Positions 1 through 38,491 of a DNA stretch of 43,590 nt are shown here, piece by piece. The position numbers and the translations under genes are program-made. The DNA is taken from assembly GCA_018334875.1 (NCBI GenBank), contig JAGXLC010000004.1, positions 1 through 43,590 of the forward strand, given 5' to 3'. This DNA comes from Bacteroidales bacterium (lineage in GTDB: Bacteria; Bacteroidota; Bacteroidia; Bacteroidales; UBA12077). Numbering within the stretch: position 1 is the stretch's first letter; each line of letters opens with the position of its first letter. Under the pieces are notes generated by a model. That model made no database searches, was not told the DNA's origin, and was given only the letters and a program-made list of their open reading frames with translations.

Positions 1-69
1 TCTAGGAACCTTCACAACAAGGACATGAGTAGCATGCGGGTTCCATGGTTATACAAGCAAAGTTTGTGA
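1..69 (+). CDS. Possible C-terminal tail of a gene truncated by the window edge
   Basis: Frame 1 is open from the first base to a TGA at 67-69 and would encode 22 residues ending in WLYKQSL. Frames 2 and 3 are closed by stops within this stretch. The piece is too short to identify, and an open stretch of this length can occur by chance. A gene entering from the left on the plus strand would suit the plus-strand gene that follows, but that is inference. Confidence 0.2.
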   Translation, partial: SRNLHNKDMSSMRVPWLYKQSL

Positions 70-122
70 TTTTTGTAAATAAATCAATTTGAATTTCAAT
101 TTTTTAATAAACTGTTACACTA

Positions 123-575
123 ATGAAATCCGAACTGGCCAATAAAAACCACAACGACTTTTATAAGACCCTGAGAAAAAAGGTTGATCACTGGCTTCAG
201 CATAGAAAAGGGGGTGGAAGATACACCAAATATATATTGCTGGCACCCGATTTTTTTCACCTACTGTGCAGGCTTTCGGTTGATCCGGAGGTTCCTGCCG
301 TGGAAAAAGCCAAGCTGGGAGCAGCAATAGCTTATTTTATAACCCCGATGGATTTTATCCCGGAAATGCTTACAGGCCCTATAGGTTACATGGATGATGT
401 GGCTCTTTCTGCTTATGTTCTAAACAGCATCATCAATAATGTCGATCCTGAGCTGGTAAAAAAGCATTGGGCAGGTGATGAGAATATCCTGAAACTCACA
501 CGTCAGATACTGGCCAGAGCCGATCAGTTGATCGGAAAAGGAGTCTGGGAAAAGGTGAAAAGAAGCATCAAATAA
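123..575 (+). CDS. DUF1232 (YkvA-type) small membrane-associated protein
   Basis: A 150-residue protein of the DUF1232/YkvA family, whose biochemical role is not established. The family core is visible at about residues 63-103: a hydrophobic segment ending in YFITPMDFIPE (71-81), then the acidic motif YMDD (89-92) and a second hydrophobic helix. In this family the core is generally taken to be a short hairpin-like membrane-associated region. The N-terminal 35 residues are basic and the C-terminus is a charged helix. There is no signal peptide. The ATG at 123 lacks an obvious Shine-Dalgarno sequence, which is usual in Bacteroidota. The next gene starts about 95 bases downstream with its own -7-like box, so the two are probably separate units. 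Confidence 0.8.
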   Translation: MKSELANKNHNDFYKTLRKKVDHWLQHRKGGGRYTKYILLAPDFFHLLCRLSVDPEVPAVEKAKLGAAIAYFITPMDFIPEMLTGPIGYMDDVALSAYVLNSIINNVDPELVKKHWAGDENILKLTRQILARADQLIGKGVWEKVKRSIK

Positions 576-670: not shown

Positions 671-1267
671 ATGAAACAGATATTGTTTACAACCCTAATG
701 ATGTTCATCGCCGCCTCCATGGCAGGCCAGGAAGAGATATCTCTGTTTAACGGGGAAAATCTTGATGGATGGGAAATACACGGTCAGGAAAAGTGGTATG
801 TTGAAGACGGCTTGCTGGTATGTGAAAGCGGCCCGGAAGAGGAATACGGATACCTCTCCACAGAAGAAAAATATAAGGATTTTATCCTTGAGTTGGATTT
901 CAAACAGGTATCCGATGGAAATAGCGGTGTTTTTTTCCGTTCTTCACTTGACGGAATTAAAATTTCGGGCTGGCAGGTAGAAGTGGCCCCTCCTGGACAT
1001 GATACAGGCGGAATTTATGAATCTTATGGAAGGGGATGGTTGAAGAAGATACCCGAGTCTAAAGAGGACATTTTGAATATGGGAGAATGGAATCATATGA
1101 AGATCCGGGTTAAAGGCGACAAGGTCACCACCTGGTTGAACGGCAAAAGGATGATGTCGCTGTCCGATGAAAAAATAGGAAAAGCCAATGGCAAAATTGC
1201 TTTACAGATTCACAGTGGCGGAGGAATAAAAGTATTGTGGAAAAATATAAATTTAAAACTTCTTTAA
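671..1267 (+). CDS. Secreted DUF1080 (3-keto-disaccharide hydrolase-type) protein
   Basis: A 198-residue single-domain protein with an N-terminal signal peptide (residues 1-19, cleavage near MAGQ). It carries the usual DUF1080 landmarks: LFNGENLDGW at 25-34, a beta strand ending NSGVFFR at 84-90, and a closing strand LQIHSGGGIKVLWKNI near 178-193. The fold is a concanavalin-like beta sandwich. Some characterised family members hydrolyse 3-keto-glycosides, and most are periplasmic or surface sugar-binding or hydrolytic proteins. No lipobox Cys follows the signal peptide, so periplasmic export is likely. No sugar-catabolic partner gene lies nearby, so the substrate cannot be inferred. The length is typical of the stand-alone domain. 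A hairpin terminator follows directly. Confidence 0.85.
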   Translation: MKQILFTTLMMFIAASMAGQEEISLFNGENLDGWEIHGQEKWYVEDGLLVCESGPEEEYGYLSTEEKYKDFILELDFKQVSDGNSGVFFRSSLDGIKISGWQVEVAPPGHDTGGIYESYGRGWLKKIPESKEDILNMGEWNHMKIRVKGDKVTTWLNGKRMMSLSDEKIGKANGKIALQIHSGGGIKVLWKNINLKLL

Positions 1268-1296
1268 CATTTCTGAATAGCCAACACTATTGGATT

Positions 1297-1321
1297 AAGG
1301 GTTTCAGCAACTGAAACCCTT
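1297..1321 (+). terminator. Rho-independent terminator after the DUF1080 gene
   Basis: An 11-bp perfect stem (1297-1307 with 1311-1321) with a 3-nt loop, followed on the plus strand by a T tract running to about 1326. It lies between the stop of the plus-strand gene and the 3' end of the convergent acc operon. The T tract points to termination of plus-strand transcription; the minus-strand side has no comparable U run. Confidence 0.85.
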
Positions 1322-1365
1322 TTTTTCATGCCGTACATTTCCAGGGCAACTCAATTAACAGACTG

Positions 1366-2430
1366 TTATTTCAGACCAAAGAACCGGGCGACATCATTCA
1401 GGAAATGGTTGCCGGCATTTGCATCTCCATTATTCTTTCCGTTGGCTGCATTTAAAAGCTTTTCGGGTATCTGGGCTTTTTCTGCTTCAAAAAAGCCTAT
1501 GGAGCGGTACTTGCTATAACGCTGATCCTTCATTTTCTCTTCATCCATGAATGCGAAGCGGAAGACATCGTCATAAAGCATTTCCTCCAGCTTATTGAGT
1601 GTAGGTTTTACGTTGGTTTCAAAATCCTTGGCTTCCTCCACAATCTTGTCTATAATACCCATTTCGAACAAATCAAATGCAGTAAGCCGGAGAGAACTGG
1701 CTGCTTCTTCCGCTCTGGAGGAATCTTTGAAAATGATGGAGGCACATCCTTCCGGAGAAATCACTGAAAGAATGGCATTTTCCATCATGTAGATTTTATT
1801 GGATACAGACAATGCCAATGCACCTCCTGATCCGCCTTCGCCGGTGATTACCGTAAAGGTGGGAACATTCAGGTCGGAAAGTTCAAAGAGATTTCTGGCT
1901 ATAGCTTCTGCCATTCCCCTTTCTTCAGCTTTCAAACCACAATAGGCCCCTGGGGTATCCACAAAGAAAATGACCGGGCGTCTGAATTTTTCTGCCTGCC
2001 GTGCCAGTCGGAGAGCTTTTCTGTAGCCTTCGGGATGGGGCATACCGAAGTTGGCATGCATGTTTCCTTTCAGATCTTTGCCTCTCCTTGTACCAATAGC
2101 CGTTACAGGAATATCTTTAAGATAACCGATACCGCCTATGATGGCATTGTCATCTCCTATAAGCCGGTCGCCATGTAAGGGGATGAAATCTTTGATCATA
2201 TTTTCAATAAAATCCTGGGGTTTGGGTCTTTCCAGTTGCCTTGCCAGCTTAACGCGTTCCCAGGGTGTATGCTGCTTTTTCTCTTCCTGATAATGGCTGT
2301 CCTGTTCCGGATAAATATCGGCCAATTTTTTTTCCAGGCTGTTTATTTCATCGTTTAGATCAATGCCTTGATTTTTGGATAGCTGTTCAAGGCTTTTAAT
2401 TGTTTTTTTGATTTTATTGGTGTAATCCAT
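1366..2430 (-). CDS. accA: Acetyl-CoA carboxylase carboxyltransferase subunit alpha
   Basis: Carboxyltransferase alpha subunit of acetyl-CoA carboxylase. With AccD it moves the carboxyl group from carboxybiotin to acetyl-CoA to make malonyl-CoA, the first committed step of fatty acid synthesis. The protein has 354 residues. It shows an N-terminal coiled segment (1-45), the crotonase-fold core with the oxyanion region DTPGAYCGLKAEERG (158-172), and the glycine-rich GEGGSGGALALSV loop (197-209) followed by the PEGCASI motif (226-232). The C-terminal tail after about residue 310 is longer than in many homologues (about 320 residues is common) and is rich in Asn, Ala and Gly, so it is probably flexible. 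It is the last gene of accBCDA, 43 bases after accD. The ATG at 2430 has only a weak purine stretch upstream. Confidence 0.96.
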   Translation of the reverse strand: MDYTNKIKKTIKSLEQLSKNQGIDLNDEINSLEKKLADIYPEQDSHYQEEKKQHTPWERVKLARQLERPKPQDFIENMIKDFIPLHGDRLIGDDNAIIGGIGYLKDIPVTAIGTRRGKDLKGNMHANFGMPHPEGYRKALRLARQAEKFRRPVIFFVDTPGAYCGLKAEERGMAEAIARNLFELSDLNVPTFTVITGEGGSGGALALSVSNKIYMMENAILSVISPEGCASIIFKDSSRAEEAASSLRLTAFDLFEMGIIDKIVEEAKDFETNVKPTLNKLEEMLYDDVFRFAFMDEEKMKDQRYSKYRSIGFFEAEKAQIPEKLLNAANGKNNGDANAGNHFLNDVARFFGLK

Positions 2431-2473
2431 TGTTTTTTAAATTTACTGTTTAACAGATCGAACAGGAAGACAA

Positions 2474-3316
2474 TCAATACTGATGTACTTTCAGTATTTT
2501 CTGAAGGGTATCTTTCAGCTTTTGCCTTTCACATATTATATCGACAAATCCTTTGTCCTGCAGGAATTCGGAGGTTTGAAAACCTTCGGGGAGTTTCTGT
2601 TTGATGGTCTGTTCAATCACTCTTGGACCTGCAAATCCGATTAATGCGTATGGCTCGGCTATGATAATATCACCAAGCATGGCGAAGGAAGCAGTTACTC
2701 CACCGGTGGTCGGATTGGTAAGCAGACTGATATAGAGATTGCCGGCATTGCTGAACCGTTTGATGGCTGCTGCAGTTTTGTTCATCTGCATCAGTGAAAC
2801 CGCACCTTCCTGCATTCTGGCACCTCCCGAACGGGATACAATAATCACGGGCAGCCGTTGTGCTTTTCCTTTTTCAAAAAGCCGGGCTACCCTTTCTCCC
2901 AATACAGATCCCATAGAACCAAGAATAAAGTCGGTATTCATGATACCGAACAATACAGGGATACCGTGAAGCCTTGCTTTTCCCGTTGTGATACCCTCGT
3001 TGATATTTTTTTCATACAGTTTATCCAACTTATCCTTATAACCGGGAAAATTCAGAACATCCAAAGTTTTGTATTCCTCAAACAAACGTTGCACCGTATC
3101 TTCCTCAAACAGGATGTTCATCCATTGCTTATTGGAAATCCTCATATGATGACCACACTCAGGACATACTCCCTGATTCCTGTCGATTTTTTTCTTATAG
3201 ACCATCTTCTTACAGTTCGGACATTGTGTAAAAAGATTATCGGGGATATATGTCTGATATTTGTCTTTGCGTGTTTTCAAAAAGTTTTGAATTATTTCCT
3301 GAATTTTTGCGCTCAT
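2474..3316 (-). CDS. accD: Acetyl-CoA carboxylase carboxyltransferase subunit beta
   Basis: Carboxyltransferase beta subunit, partner of AccA in the alpha2-beta2 enzyme that forms malonyl-CoA in the cytoplasm. The 280-residue length is normal. An N-terminal four-cysteine zinc ribbon is intact (Cys32, Cys35, Cys51, Cys54). The crotonase-type core follows, with SGGARMQEGAVSLMQM and then TNPTTGGVTASFAMLGDI, which form the CoA and biotin binding faces. The zinc ribbon is the part shown in E. coli to bind nucleic acid and acc mRNA, so autoregulation is possible here but cannot be read from the sequence. It is separated from accC by 26 bases and from accA by 43 bases, consistent with one transcript. 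Confidence 0.97.
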   Translation of the reverse strand: MSAKIQEIIQNFLKTRKDKYQTYIPDNLFTQCPNCKKMVYKKKIDRNQGVCPECGHHMRISNKQWMNILFEEDTVQRLFEEYKTLDVLNFPGYKDKLDKLYEKNINEGITTGKARLHGIPVLFGIMNTDFILGSMGSVLGERVARLFEKGKAQRLPVIIVSRSGGARMQEGAVSLMQMNKTAAAIKRFSNAGNLYISLLTNPTTGGVTASFAMLGDIIIAEPYALIGFAGPRVIEQTIKQKLPEGFQTSEFLQDKGFVDIICERQKLKDTLQKILKVHQY

Positions 3317-24654: not shown

Positions 24655-24897
24655 TAAGCCCTAATTTGGACAAGCCAAAACGGAAACACATTAAATTCCT
24701 TGAAAGCGTCCTGTTTGGTTTTGGCTTGTCCAAATTAGCAAGCAAAATTTATGAGGCATAATTATATAAAGGTCATGATCTTTTTCAATTATTTTTATCT
24801 TTGAAAATAGCCTCATAAATTTTGCCACAGTACCTTACCGGGTAAGTTTTGCCAAAAAAGCAAGAATTTGACCGGTAAGGTAGTAAGCCCTAATTTG
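24655..24897. repeat. Three consecutive perfect inverted repeats bracketed by a 14-base direct repeat
   Basis: In the divergent gap between rpsA and the hybrid kinase lie three separate perfect inverted repeats. The first has 21-bp arms (24661-24681 with 24718-24738, 36-base loop). The second has 16-bp arms (24742-24757 with 24810-24825, 52-base loop). The third has 11-bp arms (24831-24841 with 24872-24882, 30-base loop). The direct repeat TAAGCCCTAATTTG occurs at 24655-24668 and again at 24884-24897, exactly at the two ends, the second copy touching the kinase ATG. A -7-like TATCTTTG (24796-24803) lies in the second loop. No U tracts follow the stems, so these are not ordinary terminators. 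The element could be a structured leader, a small mobile or invertible element, or a protein-binding array. Confidence 0.85.
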
Positions 24898-27800
24898 ATG
24901 TCAATGGCTGTTAGCTTACATAATATTATTCTAATCCACAAACAGAAATCTGCGATTGCATATCTGGGGAAATGCCTGGAGGATAAGGGGGTTGAAGTAG
25001 CCTTTGTTTCAAGGGCAGATATTAATAAAGGTAATGTCAGAGATTTATATGAGACAGGCCCCGACCTGCTTTTATTGGAGGAAACCGAGGCCGGAGAAAT
25101 TGATTTTTCACATTACAACAAGCTTTCCGGATATTTTCCCAATGTCCCAATCATATCAGTTATAACCAAAGAGAAAGAGCAATATATTGAAGATTTGATT
25201 CGTGCGGGTGCTTGTGATTTTATTTATAAAGATACCCGATCTTCCGAAGTGCTGGCCCGTTTGTGTGCCAGCCTGGCTCACAAAGAGGAAAGCATTCATC
25301 TGGCGGCAGATGACCATAGCAAAAACTCATCCGATCCATATTACCAGTGGTTCTCAAAAACCTTCCAATCTCAAAAAGTATTGATGGATTCCACTTCATT
25401 AAAGCAGTATGAAGAAGAAATTAAAAAACTCTACACTGCCGTTGAGCAAAGTTCAAGCATGGTAATTATTGCTGACCCGGATGGCAGGATTTCTTTTGCC
25501 AATCAGCAATTTCAAGGTGAAACGGGTTATACCACAGAAGACTTAAATGAAACCCATGTCAATCTGTTCAATTATATTCATTCAGGCCACCAGAACATAG
25601 ATGATATCTGGAGAAAATTGAGTTCCGGGGAGGATTGGGAAGGAGAAGTGCTTAATAAGAAAAAGAATGGTGAAATATACTGGGAAAGGGCTTCTGTTTC
25701 ACCGGTTTTCGACCAGGCCGGGAAAATCATCCATTATATTGCCATTAAAGAAAACATAACAGAAGAGAAGGAGCTCAATGAAAAAATTCTGGAACGGAAT
25801 AAATATGATCAGTTGCGGAGTGAATTCTGGAAATTTGCCTTCTTGTCAGAGAGCGAAAATGTTTTGCTTGAGTATCTGCTGAATCGATTGGGGGAGACAT
25901 TAAATCTTGACCGGGTCAGTTTTTTTAAGTACCAACAGGGATCTTATCAATGTACAGAGCAATGGACCCGGGACGAGTCCGACAAACCCGGCAATATTGT
26001 TAAATTGCCTGATTGGTTAATTCCTAAAATTATTGAGCGGGATTATTATGAAATTCCTGAAAATGAACTAAAGATGCTTCAATCAGACAGTCCCCAATAT
26101 TTTGGATCTGTTAGAAGCTTGCTTGTCATATCATACGGGGATATTAAAAATCCATCCGGATGCTTTTTGCTGGAAGATTTTAAGGCAAGGAAACATTGGA
26201 ACTCGCAGGAAATCAAGATTGCAGGGGATTTGTCCAATATAGTGAAGTTGAAGACCGAAACCCTTGAATCAACCGAGATACTTCGGAGATCAGAAGAAAA
26301 ATTCAGGATCATTACGGAAAATTCAAGGGAATTCGTAGGGGTTCACGACAATGAAGGGAGCTTTGAATATGTGTCTCCCTCAAGCAAAGAAATGCTTGGT
26401 TATGGTCAGGAAGAGCTTCTGGGAAAAAAACCGTATGATTTTATTCATCCGGAAGATATGCAACCTGTTAAAGATCATTTTTTCAGGCAGGTTACGGATG
26501 CCAATCTTGATAATAAAATTGAATATAGAGTAAAACGCAAGGACGGTCATTATATATGGTTTGAAACAATTATCCAGCCCATAAGGAATAAAGAAGGTGA
26601 GGTAGTTGAAATCCAAACCTCTTCCCGGGATATTACCGAAAGAAAACAGGTAGAACAACAGATTCGTGAAAAAGAAGAAAAATACCGGAATATTTTTGAA
26701 AGCATGTTCGATGTCTATCTTGAAGTAAATGTGGAGGATGGTGAAATACTCGAAATAAGTCCTTCTGTTGAGAGAATTTCCGGTTACTCCAGGCACGAAT
26801 TGATAGGCAGGTCCATTTTTCCAATCTATGCCCATTCTGAAGAATGGCAGGAACTTATTGATACCCTTTCCAAAAAAGAAAGGGTCAGTGATTTTGAAGT
26901 AAATTTATTGAATAAGGACGGTGAAAAAGTTACATGTTCCTATTCGGTTCGGATGATAAAGGATATGAATGGTAACCCGAAAAAGATGGTTGGAACATTG
27001 AGGGACATTTCAGAACGAAAACGCGCTGAAAGACAGTTGGAAGAAGCTAAGGTAAAAGCAGAGTCGGCATCGAAAGCCAAAAGTGAATTTCTGGCCAATA
27101 TGTCTCATGAAATTCGTACTCCGATGAATGCCATTCTGGGCTTTAGTGAAGTATTGATGAATAAGCTGGAGGATGAGGAAAACAGGAGCCATCTTGAGGC
27201 CATTCTGTCCAGCGGCAGGACACTCTTATCATTGATTAATGACATTCTTGATCTTTCTAAGATTGAGGCTGGCAAAATGCAAATTAATTATGAACCGGTT
27301 GAGTTACCAATATTGGTAGAAGATATCCAGCACATCTTTGAAAAGAAACTTTCGGAAAAGAACCTCAGTTTAAAAATTGATATTGACAGGAATCTGCCTC
27401 ATATATTATATCTCGATGAAGTAAGAATAAGACAGATACTTTTCAATCTTGTGGGGAACGCCATCAAATTTACAGATGAGGGCTATATTAAGATTGGTGT
27501 GTATATAAAAGAAACAGAACCCGATAAGTATCAACTGAATTTGATGGTGAAAGATACGGGAGTTGGGATTCCCCGAAAGCAGCAACGATTGATCTTCAAT
27601 GCATTTCACCAGCAATATGGACAGGATTCCCGAAGATATGAAGGTTCAGGATTGGGTCTCTCTATTACAAGGAAACTGGTGGAGAAAATGAATGGTCAGA
27701 TTAAACTGGACAGCCGGATAGGTCAGGGGAGCAAGTTTGAGATTATCCTCCCTGATATCCAAAGGGGTCAACAGAAGGAAGCTTCTTACCGCAAGGAACC

Positions 27801-28512
27801 GGTTGATCATACCAGGGTAGCATTTAAACCTGCGACCATTCTTGTGGTGGATGATATACAATATAATATTGACACCATCAAGAATCTTGTTAATTCTGAA
27901 AATATTAAATTTACCGAAGCTCAGAATGCCGAGAAAGCATTGGAGATAGTGAAGATTACGCCCCCGGATCTCATATTGATGGATCTTAAATTGCCGGATA
28001 TGAGCGGCTATGAAGCTACAGCCATCATTAAGTCTACAAAAAAATCGCAGACGATACCTGTTTTGGGCTTTACTGCCACGGCAATGGCAAATGATGAATC
28101 CCAGGCCAAAAGCCTTTTTGACGATTTCATCACAAAACCGGTCACCAAAAATGAATTGTTTGGAAAATTGACTAAATATTTGTCTTATAAACCCCAAAAA
28201 TCAACCTCCGTAAAAGAAGAAAAGGAAGTTTCCGAACCCAGAAAGCTGACAAAAGAGGATTACAGGAAGATTTTAGAGATACTTGAGTTTGATTTGATGA
28301 ATGATTGGGAAGAAATAAAGGATAACCTCGTAATCTATAAAATTGAGACTTTTCTGGATAAGTTGGAGGATCTGAGCAAAACATACCCTATGGAAGTCAT
28401 AAATGACTATCAGAAGGAACTTGCAACCTATATGAATAATTTAGATATTGAGAATATGGAACGTAAGCTCAAGGAATTTCCTTCTAAGGTTGAAGAGATT
28501 AAAAATGGCTGA
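24898..28512 (+). CDS. Hybrid sensor histidine kinase with N-terminal pseudo-receiver and PAS domains
   Basis: A 1204-residue cytoplasmic signalling protein without evident membrane segments. Order: an N-terminal receiver-like domain (about 8-128), a PAS domain (about 175-290), a GAF-like region (about 305-455), two more PAS domains (about 463-583 and 592-706), HisKA with His737 in NMSHEIRTPMN, an HATPase with NLVGNAIKFTD, DTGVGIP and GSGLGLSI, a receiver (about 978-1095) with Asp1029, and a C-terminal helical domain (about 1115-1204). In the first receiver-like domain the phospho-acceptor Asp is replaced by Glu61 and the N-terminal acidic pair is missing, so it is probably unphosphorylatable. 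The ATG at 24898 is chosen; upstream sequence in frame (from a TTG at 24868) would run into a perfect inverted repeat. Confidence 0.9.
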   Translation: MSMAVSLHNIILIHKQKSAIAYLGKCLEDKGVEVAFVSRADINKGNVRDLYETGPDLLLLEETEAGEIDFSHYNKLSGYFPNVPIISVITKEKEQYIEDLIRAGACDFIYKDTRSSEVLARLCASLAHKEESIHLAADDHSKNSSDPYYQWFSKTFQSQKVLMDSTSLKQYEEEIKKLYTAVEQSSSMVIIADPDGRISFANQQFQGETGYTTEDLNETHVNLFNYIHSGHQNIDDIWRKLSSGEDWEGEVLNKKKNGEIYWERASVSPVFDQAGKIIHYIAIKENITEEKELNEKILERNKYDQLRSEFWKFAFLSESENVLLEYLLNRLGETLNLDRVSFFKYQQGSYQCTEQWTRDESDKPGNIVKLPDWLIPKIIERDYYEIPENELKMLQSDSPQYFGSVRSLLVISYGDIKNPSGCFLLEDFKARKHWNSQEIKIAGDLSNIVKLKTETLESTEILRRSEEKFRIITENSREFVGVHDNEGSFEYVSPSSKEMLGYGQEELLGKKPYDFIHPEDMQPVKDHFFRQVTDANLDNKIEYRVKRKDGHYIWFETIIQPIRNKEGEVVEIQTSSRDITERKQVEQQIREKEEKYRNIFESMFDVYLEVNVEDGEILEISPSVERISGYSRHELIGRSIFPIYAHSEEWQELIDTLSKKERVSDFEVNLLNKDGEKVTCSYSVRMIKDMNGNPKKMVGTLRDISERKRAERQLEEAKVKAESASKAKSEFLANMSHEIRTPMNAILGFSEVLMNKLEDEENRSHLEAILSSGRTLLSLINDILDLSKIEAGKMQINYEPVELPILVEDIQHIFEKKLSEKNLSLKIDIDRNLPHILYLDEVRIRQILFNLVGNAIKFTDEGYIKIGVYIKETEPDKYQLNLMVKDTGVGIPRKQQRLIFNAFHQQYGQDSRRYEGSGLGLSITRKLVEKMNGQIKLDSRIGQGSKFEIILPDIQRGQQKEASYRKEPVDHTRVAFKPATILVVDDIQYNIDTIKNLVNSENIKFTEAQNAEKALEIVKITPPDLILMDLKLPDMSGYEATAIIKSTKKSQTIPVLGFTATAMANDESQAKSLFDDFITKPVTKNELFGKLTKYLSYKPQKSTSVKEEKEVSEPRKLTKEDYRKILEILEFDLMNDWEEIKDNLVIYKIETFLDKLEDLSKTYPMEVINDYQKELATYMNNLDIENMERKLKEFPSKVEEIKNG

Positions 28513-33482: not shown

Positions 33483-33889
33483 AGATCAGAATTTTGGAAG
33501 TTAATAATTTTTAAGTGTATTTTTGTTTGCATATATTTTGCCTTGGCCATTATTTCATTACAAATATATTAATAAATTTAATACAATTGTGTTAAAAATT
33601 AAAATCTTTAGCCTGCATTATTCAAAAACGAATCCCGCTGAAAAAGCGGGATTCGTTTTTGAATGCGGGATGGTTTGCGGGATGGATGGAGGCAACCCCG
33701 CATTAGAAAAACCGGCTTTTTGCGAACTTTATTGAAGCCAAAAGCCAGGTTTTTCAATAGCGTCAGAATTATTCAAGAATAATTCGGGTTAAAGAAAGAA
33801 AATTTTTTTTTAACCCGAATTTGATACTGGATTTTTGAATATTTAAAATTATTGCTACATTAGACTGCTAAAGAAATAAAGTTACCGGA
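33483..33889. other. Intergenic region with four hairpins
   Basis: A 407-base gap between divergent genes. It holds a perfect 20-bp stem (33620-33639 with 33645-33664, 5-base loop), a second hairpin (33706-33720 with 33740-33755, one bulge), a short palindrome (33766-33774 with 33777-33785) and a fourth stem (33781-33793 with 33809-33821). The third and fourth share bases 33781-33785, so they cannot form fully together. TGCGGGATGG occurs twice (33664-33673 and 33676-33685). No gene end is close by, so terminators for neighbouring genes are not needed here. A small RNA is possible. The short frame across it has no protein-like character. Confidence 0.7.
33834..33863 (+). promoter_or_regulatory. 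Candidate promoter for the TPR and PorE-like genes
   Basis: TTTG at 33834-33837 and TACATTAG at 33856-33863 are separated by 18 bases, the same spacing as at the tetR promoter. The -7 box has one mismatch to TAnnTTTG. The ATG of the TPR gene is 27 bases further on. Confidence 0.5.
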
Positions 33890-38435: not shown

Positions 38436-38491
38436 ATTAGAATTTAGAGTTTAGAATTTAGGATTTAGAGTTTAGAATTTAGAGTTTAAGG
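38436..38491. repeat. Heptanucleotide tandem repeat (TTTAGAA/TTTAGAG)
   Basis: Eight consecutive 7-bp units; six fit TTTAGRR, flanked by ATTAGAA and TTTAAGG. It ends 19 bases before the ComB-family ATG, so it lies in the leader or promoter of that gene. Such slipped-strand-prone tracts can vary in unit number. Inverted copies lie at 38262-38282. Confidence 0.9.

Follow-up and report, generated by a model that had tools for sequence, protein, structure and literature searches.

Insertion sequences of the IS200/IS605 type have hairpins at their ends and insert beside a short fixed motif without generating a target-site duplication. The REP, BIME and REPIN sequences with TnpA-REP (RAYT) are palindromic intergenic repeats that occur in many copies, both singly and in clusters, and atypical REP-like structures have been reported beside TnpA subclass 2.6, which is rich in Bacteroidetes members (PMC6006769, PMC8266576, PMC3733652). 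In Streptococcus pneumoniae, BOX elements are reported to carry inverted repeats at their termini and to be flanked by target-site duplications (PMC3049150). Palindromic repeats for which no mobiliser is known are an open problem. In this work, we analysed an array of three hairpins situated directly before a hybrid histidine kinase gene in a Bacteroidales genome, within a stretch of 43,590 nucleotides (hereafter the window). The array proved to be a single copy of a composite repeat that is dispersed through the genome, and it is not specific to the kinase gene.

The hairpin array and its copies in the genome

The features of the locus are as follows.

24655-24668, + strand: left copy of a 14-bp direct repeat, made up of host TAAGC, CCTAA and the first bases of hp1
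24660-24664, + strand: CCTAA motif abutting the precise end of hp1 (basis: one-sided CCTRA in 44 of 48 hp1 copies)
24661-24738, + strand: module hp1, a perfect 21-bp stem (24661-24681/24718-24738) with a 36-base loop inverted relative to most copies; about 54 copies genome-wide
24739-24827, + strand: module hp2, a perfect 16-bp stem (24742-24757/24810-24825) whose loop holds TATCTTTG
24828-24886, + strand: module hp3, an imperfect palindrome overall with a perfect 11-bp core stem (24831-24841/24872-24882); about 50 copies genome-wide
24884-24897, + strand: right copy of the 14-bp repeat, made up of the last 3 bases of hp3 and GCCCTAATTTG
24898-28512, + strand: hybrid histidine kinase with PAS domains, HisKA, HATPase_c and a receiver (Pfam scan from 24904)

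A sequence-only reading had described three perfect stems separated by 3 and 5 bases and bracketed by a direct repeat, and all of these lie where it placed them. Its view that the array is non-random also held: the fold of the segment gave z = −10.2 as RNA and −11.2 as DNA, and at least one perfect inverted repeat of at least 11 bp appeared in 13 of 1000 dinucleotide shuffles, one longer than 13 bp in none of the 1000. The composite hp1-hp2-hp3 spans 24661-24886, and hp3 terminates in TAA, which is part of GTAA in the window copy and of CTAA in most copies. A known leader or riboswitch RNA was rejected as a candidate, as the Rfam covariance models gave nothing above the gathering score on the array, only sub-threshold chance matches (best E = 0.059, 23.7 bits vs. 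83 needed).

The array's own genome was searched as a fragmented assembly of 4.72 Mb in 533 contigs (96% complete, 2.4% contamination). The 243-base query gave 76 matches, comprising a near full-length set at 84–97% identity and many copies of hp1 only, while a query with the second half of the segment found many solo hp3 copies. Genome-wide, the two hp1 arms were counted 56 and 52 times (reversed-pattern control, 1 and 2) and the two hp3 arms 49 and 50 times (control, 1 and 1). Both hairpins are mostly solo; about a dozen full composites exist, always in the order hp1-hp2-hp3, and the hp1 arms are nearly always paired about 55 bases apart. The fetched stretches contained 12 plain hp1-hp2-hp3 copies, one with a fourth module and one with nested inserts, as well as several hp1-hp2 copies truncated at differing points. 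In the same stretches, a complete hp1 stood alone about 30 times and hp3 29 times. An extra palindromic module, hp4 (TTTTTTCAGGACAAGCCTGAAAAAAAGCGC), comes after some hp3. The composites form two subfamilies and a set with inverted loop 1, to which the window copy belongs; these groups indicate successive waves of copying.

The copies lie nearly all between genes. With gene contexts assigned by a simple open-reading-frame caller, 28 were in tandem, 18 in divergent and 11 in convergent intergenic DNA, the respective intergenic lengths being 73:44:26 kb. This proportional placement argues against a favoured regulatory position. In hp1 and hp3, substitutions build up in the arms at nearly the rate seen in the loops, with 43 pairs broken vs. 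2 compensated in hp1 and 12 vs. 1 in hp3; in 14 copies of hp2, the arms are more conserved than the loop. Folding and covariation, suggested earlier as a check, thus gave a strong fold together with pairing that is not preserved across copies in hp1 and hp3. To judge from these substitutions, the pairing of both modules decays neutrally.

Other dispersed palindromic repeats also have copies in the window, at 1-129 and 33604-33794, and a short TTTAGGATTTAGAG-type repeat at 38437-38488 recurs elsewhere in the genome. Across 1.22 Mb of the genome we noted 154 repeat intervals, about 100 of them tied to one further modular superfamily.

In two genomes of the same genus, the divergent rpsA and the orthologous kinase neighbours are kept and the region between them has no array, these intergenic regions being too diverged to place the exact junction. 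The suggestion of an inserted element was therefore borne out, both by the many dispersed copies in the same genome and by the empty orthologous sites. The proposed search of related genomes yielded these empty sites and no full copies; 38 relatives gave only short partial matches, of which the best was 51 nt of hp3-like sequence from a genome of the same genus. The exact 21-mer of the hp1 arm occurred nowhere in genome_contigs or viral_contigs outside the records of the genome itself. The kinase gene is a bystander and not part of the element. Its closest named match, from a Bacteroidales genome, is 43% identical, and its start is probably the second ATG, at 24904, since the relatives' proteins align better from there.

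Junctions, the direct repeat and loop orientation

The 14-bp sequence TAAGCCCTAATTTG stands at 24655-24668 and at 24884-24897, the second copy immediately preceding the ATG at 24898. It had been read as a possible target-site duplication, and the comparison of copies did not support this: the left-hand CCTAATTTG recurs in almost every hp1 copy irrespective of the flanking sequence, the right-hand GCCCTAATTTG is found in full in the window copy alone, and 63 copies (30 hp1, 21 hp3 and 12 composite) showed no excess of duplications over shuffled flanks. A tandem or circular unit may have given rise to the right 14-mer but need not be invoked: hp3 followed by CCTAA was found only in the window copy and at C17:17821, and the pattern is no commoner than its reversed control (3 vs. 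8 + 5). If CCTAA is the target, the empty site would have read TAAGCCCTAAGCCCTAATTTG, that is, a short host tandem, with TTTG shared by chance; alternatively, the right 14-mer may be a remnant of another hp1 end. Neither would be a duplication made by insertion.

The junctions were read in fetched stretches that total about 1.31 Mb and are richer in copies than the genome at large, the genome-wide figures being the arm counts given above. CCTRA flanked hp1 on exactly one side in 44 of 48 copies and on both sides in none; it was CCTAA, sometimes CCTGA and once CCTCA. In 6 hp1 copies its fourth position varied, while the mirrored base of the other arm was invariant. This variability on one arm only is suggestive of a motif supplied by the target instead of being copied with the element, and CCTAA (CCTRA) is probably a target motif. 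The opposite end of hp1, read from copies that were located by similarity and so had ragged ends trimmed, is ragged, stopping at AATTA, AATTAG or AATTAGCAA or running deeper into hp2, where truncations fall at 17, 32, 69 and 81 (the last three times). The pattern of hp3 is the mirror image, its outer side being mostly a fixed CTAA while the inner end varies by a few bases between copies, and the composite copies have CTAA at the start and CTAA at the end. Since the fixed ends of hp1 and hp3 are on opposite sides, no one polarity fits the composite.

One filled junction could be set beside uninterrupted copies of its host repeat. On contig C370, a truncated and chimaeric hp1-like copy lies within another repeat with the junction CCTTA, and the empty site reads CCTAA in C40 and GCTAA in C47, so that the pair is an imperfect one. 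Other palindromes of the same genome (family D) lie 3′ of YTAR motifs that vary between copies, and their far end is TTAA in all complete copies seen. Two hp1 copies (C264:5394-5741 and C194:7582-7753) carry a family D palindrome within their loop, at TTTAA/TGTG, and C264 holds a second palindrome (CCTGCATT...AATGCAGG) that is also bounded by TTAA. Taken together, the one-sidedness of CCTRA, the absence of duplications, the C370/C40/C47 junctions and the family D pattern favour a mode in which the element would insert on the 3′ side of a short motif and leave no duplication.

The second loop holds TATCTTTG, which we take to match the −7 consensus of Bacteroidota; no TTG was seen at −33 spacing for this box. 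An invertible promoter in this loop, as proposed before, was rejected, since loop 2 points the same way with respect to hp3 in all copies. The loop found both ways is loop 1: measured against the one-sided CCTRA tag, 36 copies had one orientation and 8 the other (n = 44), with four composites among the inverted ones and the window copy in the minority. With its identical arms, a solo hp1 may show either loop orientation simply because the hairpin inserted one way or the other. In the composites, loop 1 did invert relative to hp2-hp3 at least once.

Origin of the array and the search for a mobilising enzyme

The intergenic dispersal, the solo hp1 and hp3, the empty orthologous region and the absent target-site duplication make it highly probable that the segment is a non-autonomous, non-coding mobile palindromic repeat with three modules in fixed order. 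Its mobility, perhaps as single-stranded DNA, may be explained by an enzyme supplied in trans that would recognise the hairpins and join the element 3′ of the short target motif without duplication, in the mode of IS200/IS605-type (HUH Y1) transposases; the single-strand step by itself is, by analogy, quite conceivable, if short of probable. On this view, the hairpins would serve mobility as recognition structures and would not be riboregulators, and the kinase leader would merely have received the insertion, any effect on expression being incidental. Most likely, the element is selfish mobile DNA that landed before the kinase gene, not a purpose-built switch. It is rather unlikely, yet worth stating, that this Bacteroidota lineage harbours a separate class of mobile DNA with several hairpins, which would insert 3′ of YTAR/CCTRA without duplication, with the foot TTAG as a guide pairing with the target CTAA, in either loop orientation and by means of an unrecognised trans-acting enzyme.

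No transposase or other enzyme was found adjoining full copies in this fragmented assembly, which counts against the mobile-repeat reading, as do the imperfect C370 comparison, the opposite fixed ends of hp1 and hp3 and the greater conservation of the hp2 arms. The genome has three Y1 transposase loci, none carrying hp1-hp4, and two group II-like reverse transcriptase genes, whose loci are without full copies, with only a 25-base hp1 fragment near one; linkage of full copies to either kind of gene was rejected. As a separate observation, the Y1 gene on contig C369 (480-1520 of the fetched locus) is flanked on both sides by repeats of another family (AACCTTATTACCTTATT), also found elsewhere, and by its sequence looks like a REPtron. 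On contig C39, a palindromic repeat whose copy at window 1-129 is unbroken is split into two halves by a group II-type intron reverse transcriptase (939-3020 of the fetched locus), and here the intron appears to have inserted into the repeat hairpin.

These data bear on four other explanations. The position of the array directly before the start codon and its very stable fold would suit a structured 5′ leader that arose for control of the hybrid kinase, as an RNA attenuator or stability element, but the same array stands at many unrelated intergenic sites, is missing from the orthologous leaders, has far more broken than compensated pairs in hp1 and corresponds to no Rfam family above cut-off, which leaves this explanation very improbable. 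Even less credit can be given to a local switch acting on the kinase by inversion of a promoter or loop. Loop 1 does occur both ways, with the minority orientation at the window copy, yet it has no recognised promoter; loop 2, the bearer of the promoter-like box, is never inverted, and the inverted set may go back to one old inversion spread by copying, or to solo copies inserted either way.

Two further explanations concern the way of spreading. Alone, hp1 resembles an element of 78 bp bounded by 21-bp terminal inverted repeats, and the composites start and finish with CTAA, as might be expected if a DDE transposase had moved a MITE of the classical kind, with the 14-bp repeat as its target duplication. 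This is improbable: duplication did not rise above chance in any copy class, the hp1 arms occur almost only as pairs at their usual spacing and no larger element with such ends was seen in the assembly, and the two modules that end the composite, hp1 and hp3, do not form an inverted-repeat pair. Copying through RNA by target-primed reverse transcription would leave one precise and one ragged end, as is observed for hp1 with its truncations inside hp2, and the two group II-like reverse transcriptase genes speak for it as well; the fixed end of solo hp3, however, is on the opposite side, and the reverse transcriptase loci lack full copies, so that we hold this route, too, to be improbable. Insertion of a mobile palindromic repeat remains our preferred explanation, and an effect of the array on kinase expression as a leader is possible as a candidate side effect. 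An eye-catching array of leader hairpins may be mobile DNA, and its copy number should be checked before regulation is proposed.

Relation to described repeat families

Like REP, BIME and REPIN sequences, the hp repeats are intergenic, palindromic and multi-copy, occur alone or clustered and were probably moved in trans as hairpins. Unlike REP, the modules are longer (60–90 bases each, with longer stems and loops), three different ones stand in fixed order, and no Y1 gene flanked by the same repeats was found in the fragmented assembly. The REP tag GT[AG]G is absent from the 5′ foot: the foot of hp1 is CCTAA, and those of hp3 are CAGTACC and TTAGTACC (copy consensus).

The hp repeats share with the CGTC-tagged palindromes and the Rickettsia palindromic elements (RPE) their dispersal as palindromes without a dedicated transposase (PMC3733652), but differ from them in being almost all intergenic, in their one-sided CCTRA junction and in the absence of CGTC from the copy ends that were read. 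With BOX, compared by description (PMC3049150), they have in common a modular structured composite that is intergenic and non-autonomous, clusters with other repeats and inserts into them; unlike BOX, the array has neither terminal inverted repeats nor target-site duplications, and its modules are unrelated and also spread alone. A MITE would share terminal inverted repeats with an autonomous element, whereas the 21-bp hp1 arms occur in the assembly almost only as the paired arms of the hairpin, and the duplication expected of a MITE did not exceed chance in the hp1, hp3 or composite sets.

Non-autonomous elements derived from IS200/IS605 are resembled in the hairpins and the lack of duplication, and may be resembled in insertion beside a short motif, to judge from the one-sided CCTRA and one imperfect comparison of filled and empty sites; the differences are that no parent transposase with matching ends was found, that there are three hairpins instead of two, and that solo copies have one ragged end. 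Since the REP and CGTC tags and the BOX/MITE duplications are absent and no enzyme was found, we place the element in none of the REP, CGTC palindrome, BOX or MITE families. The subfamilies of this genome, the solo and composite forms, the nested insertions and the one-sided junction rule make the mechanism testable. By analogy, the best-supported conclusion is that the element would work like REP or IS200/IS605-derived repeats.
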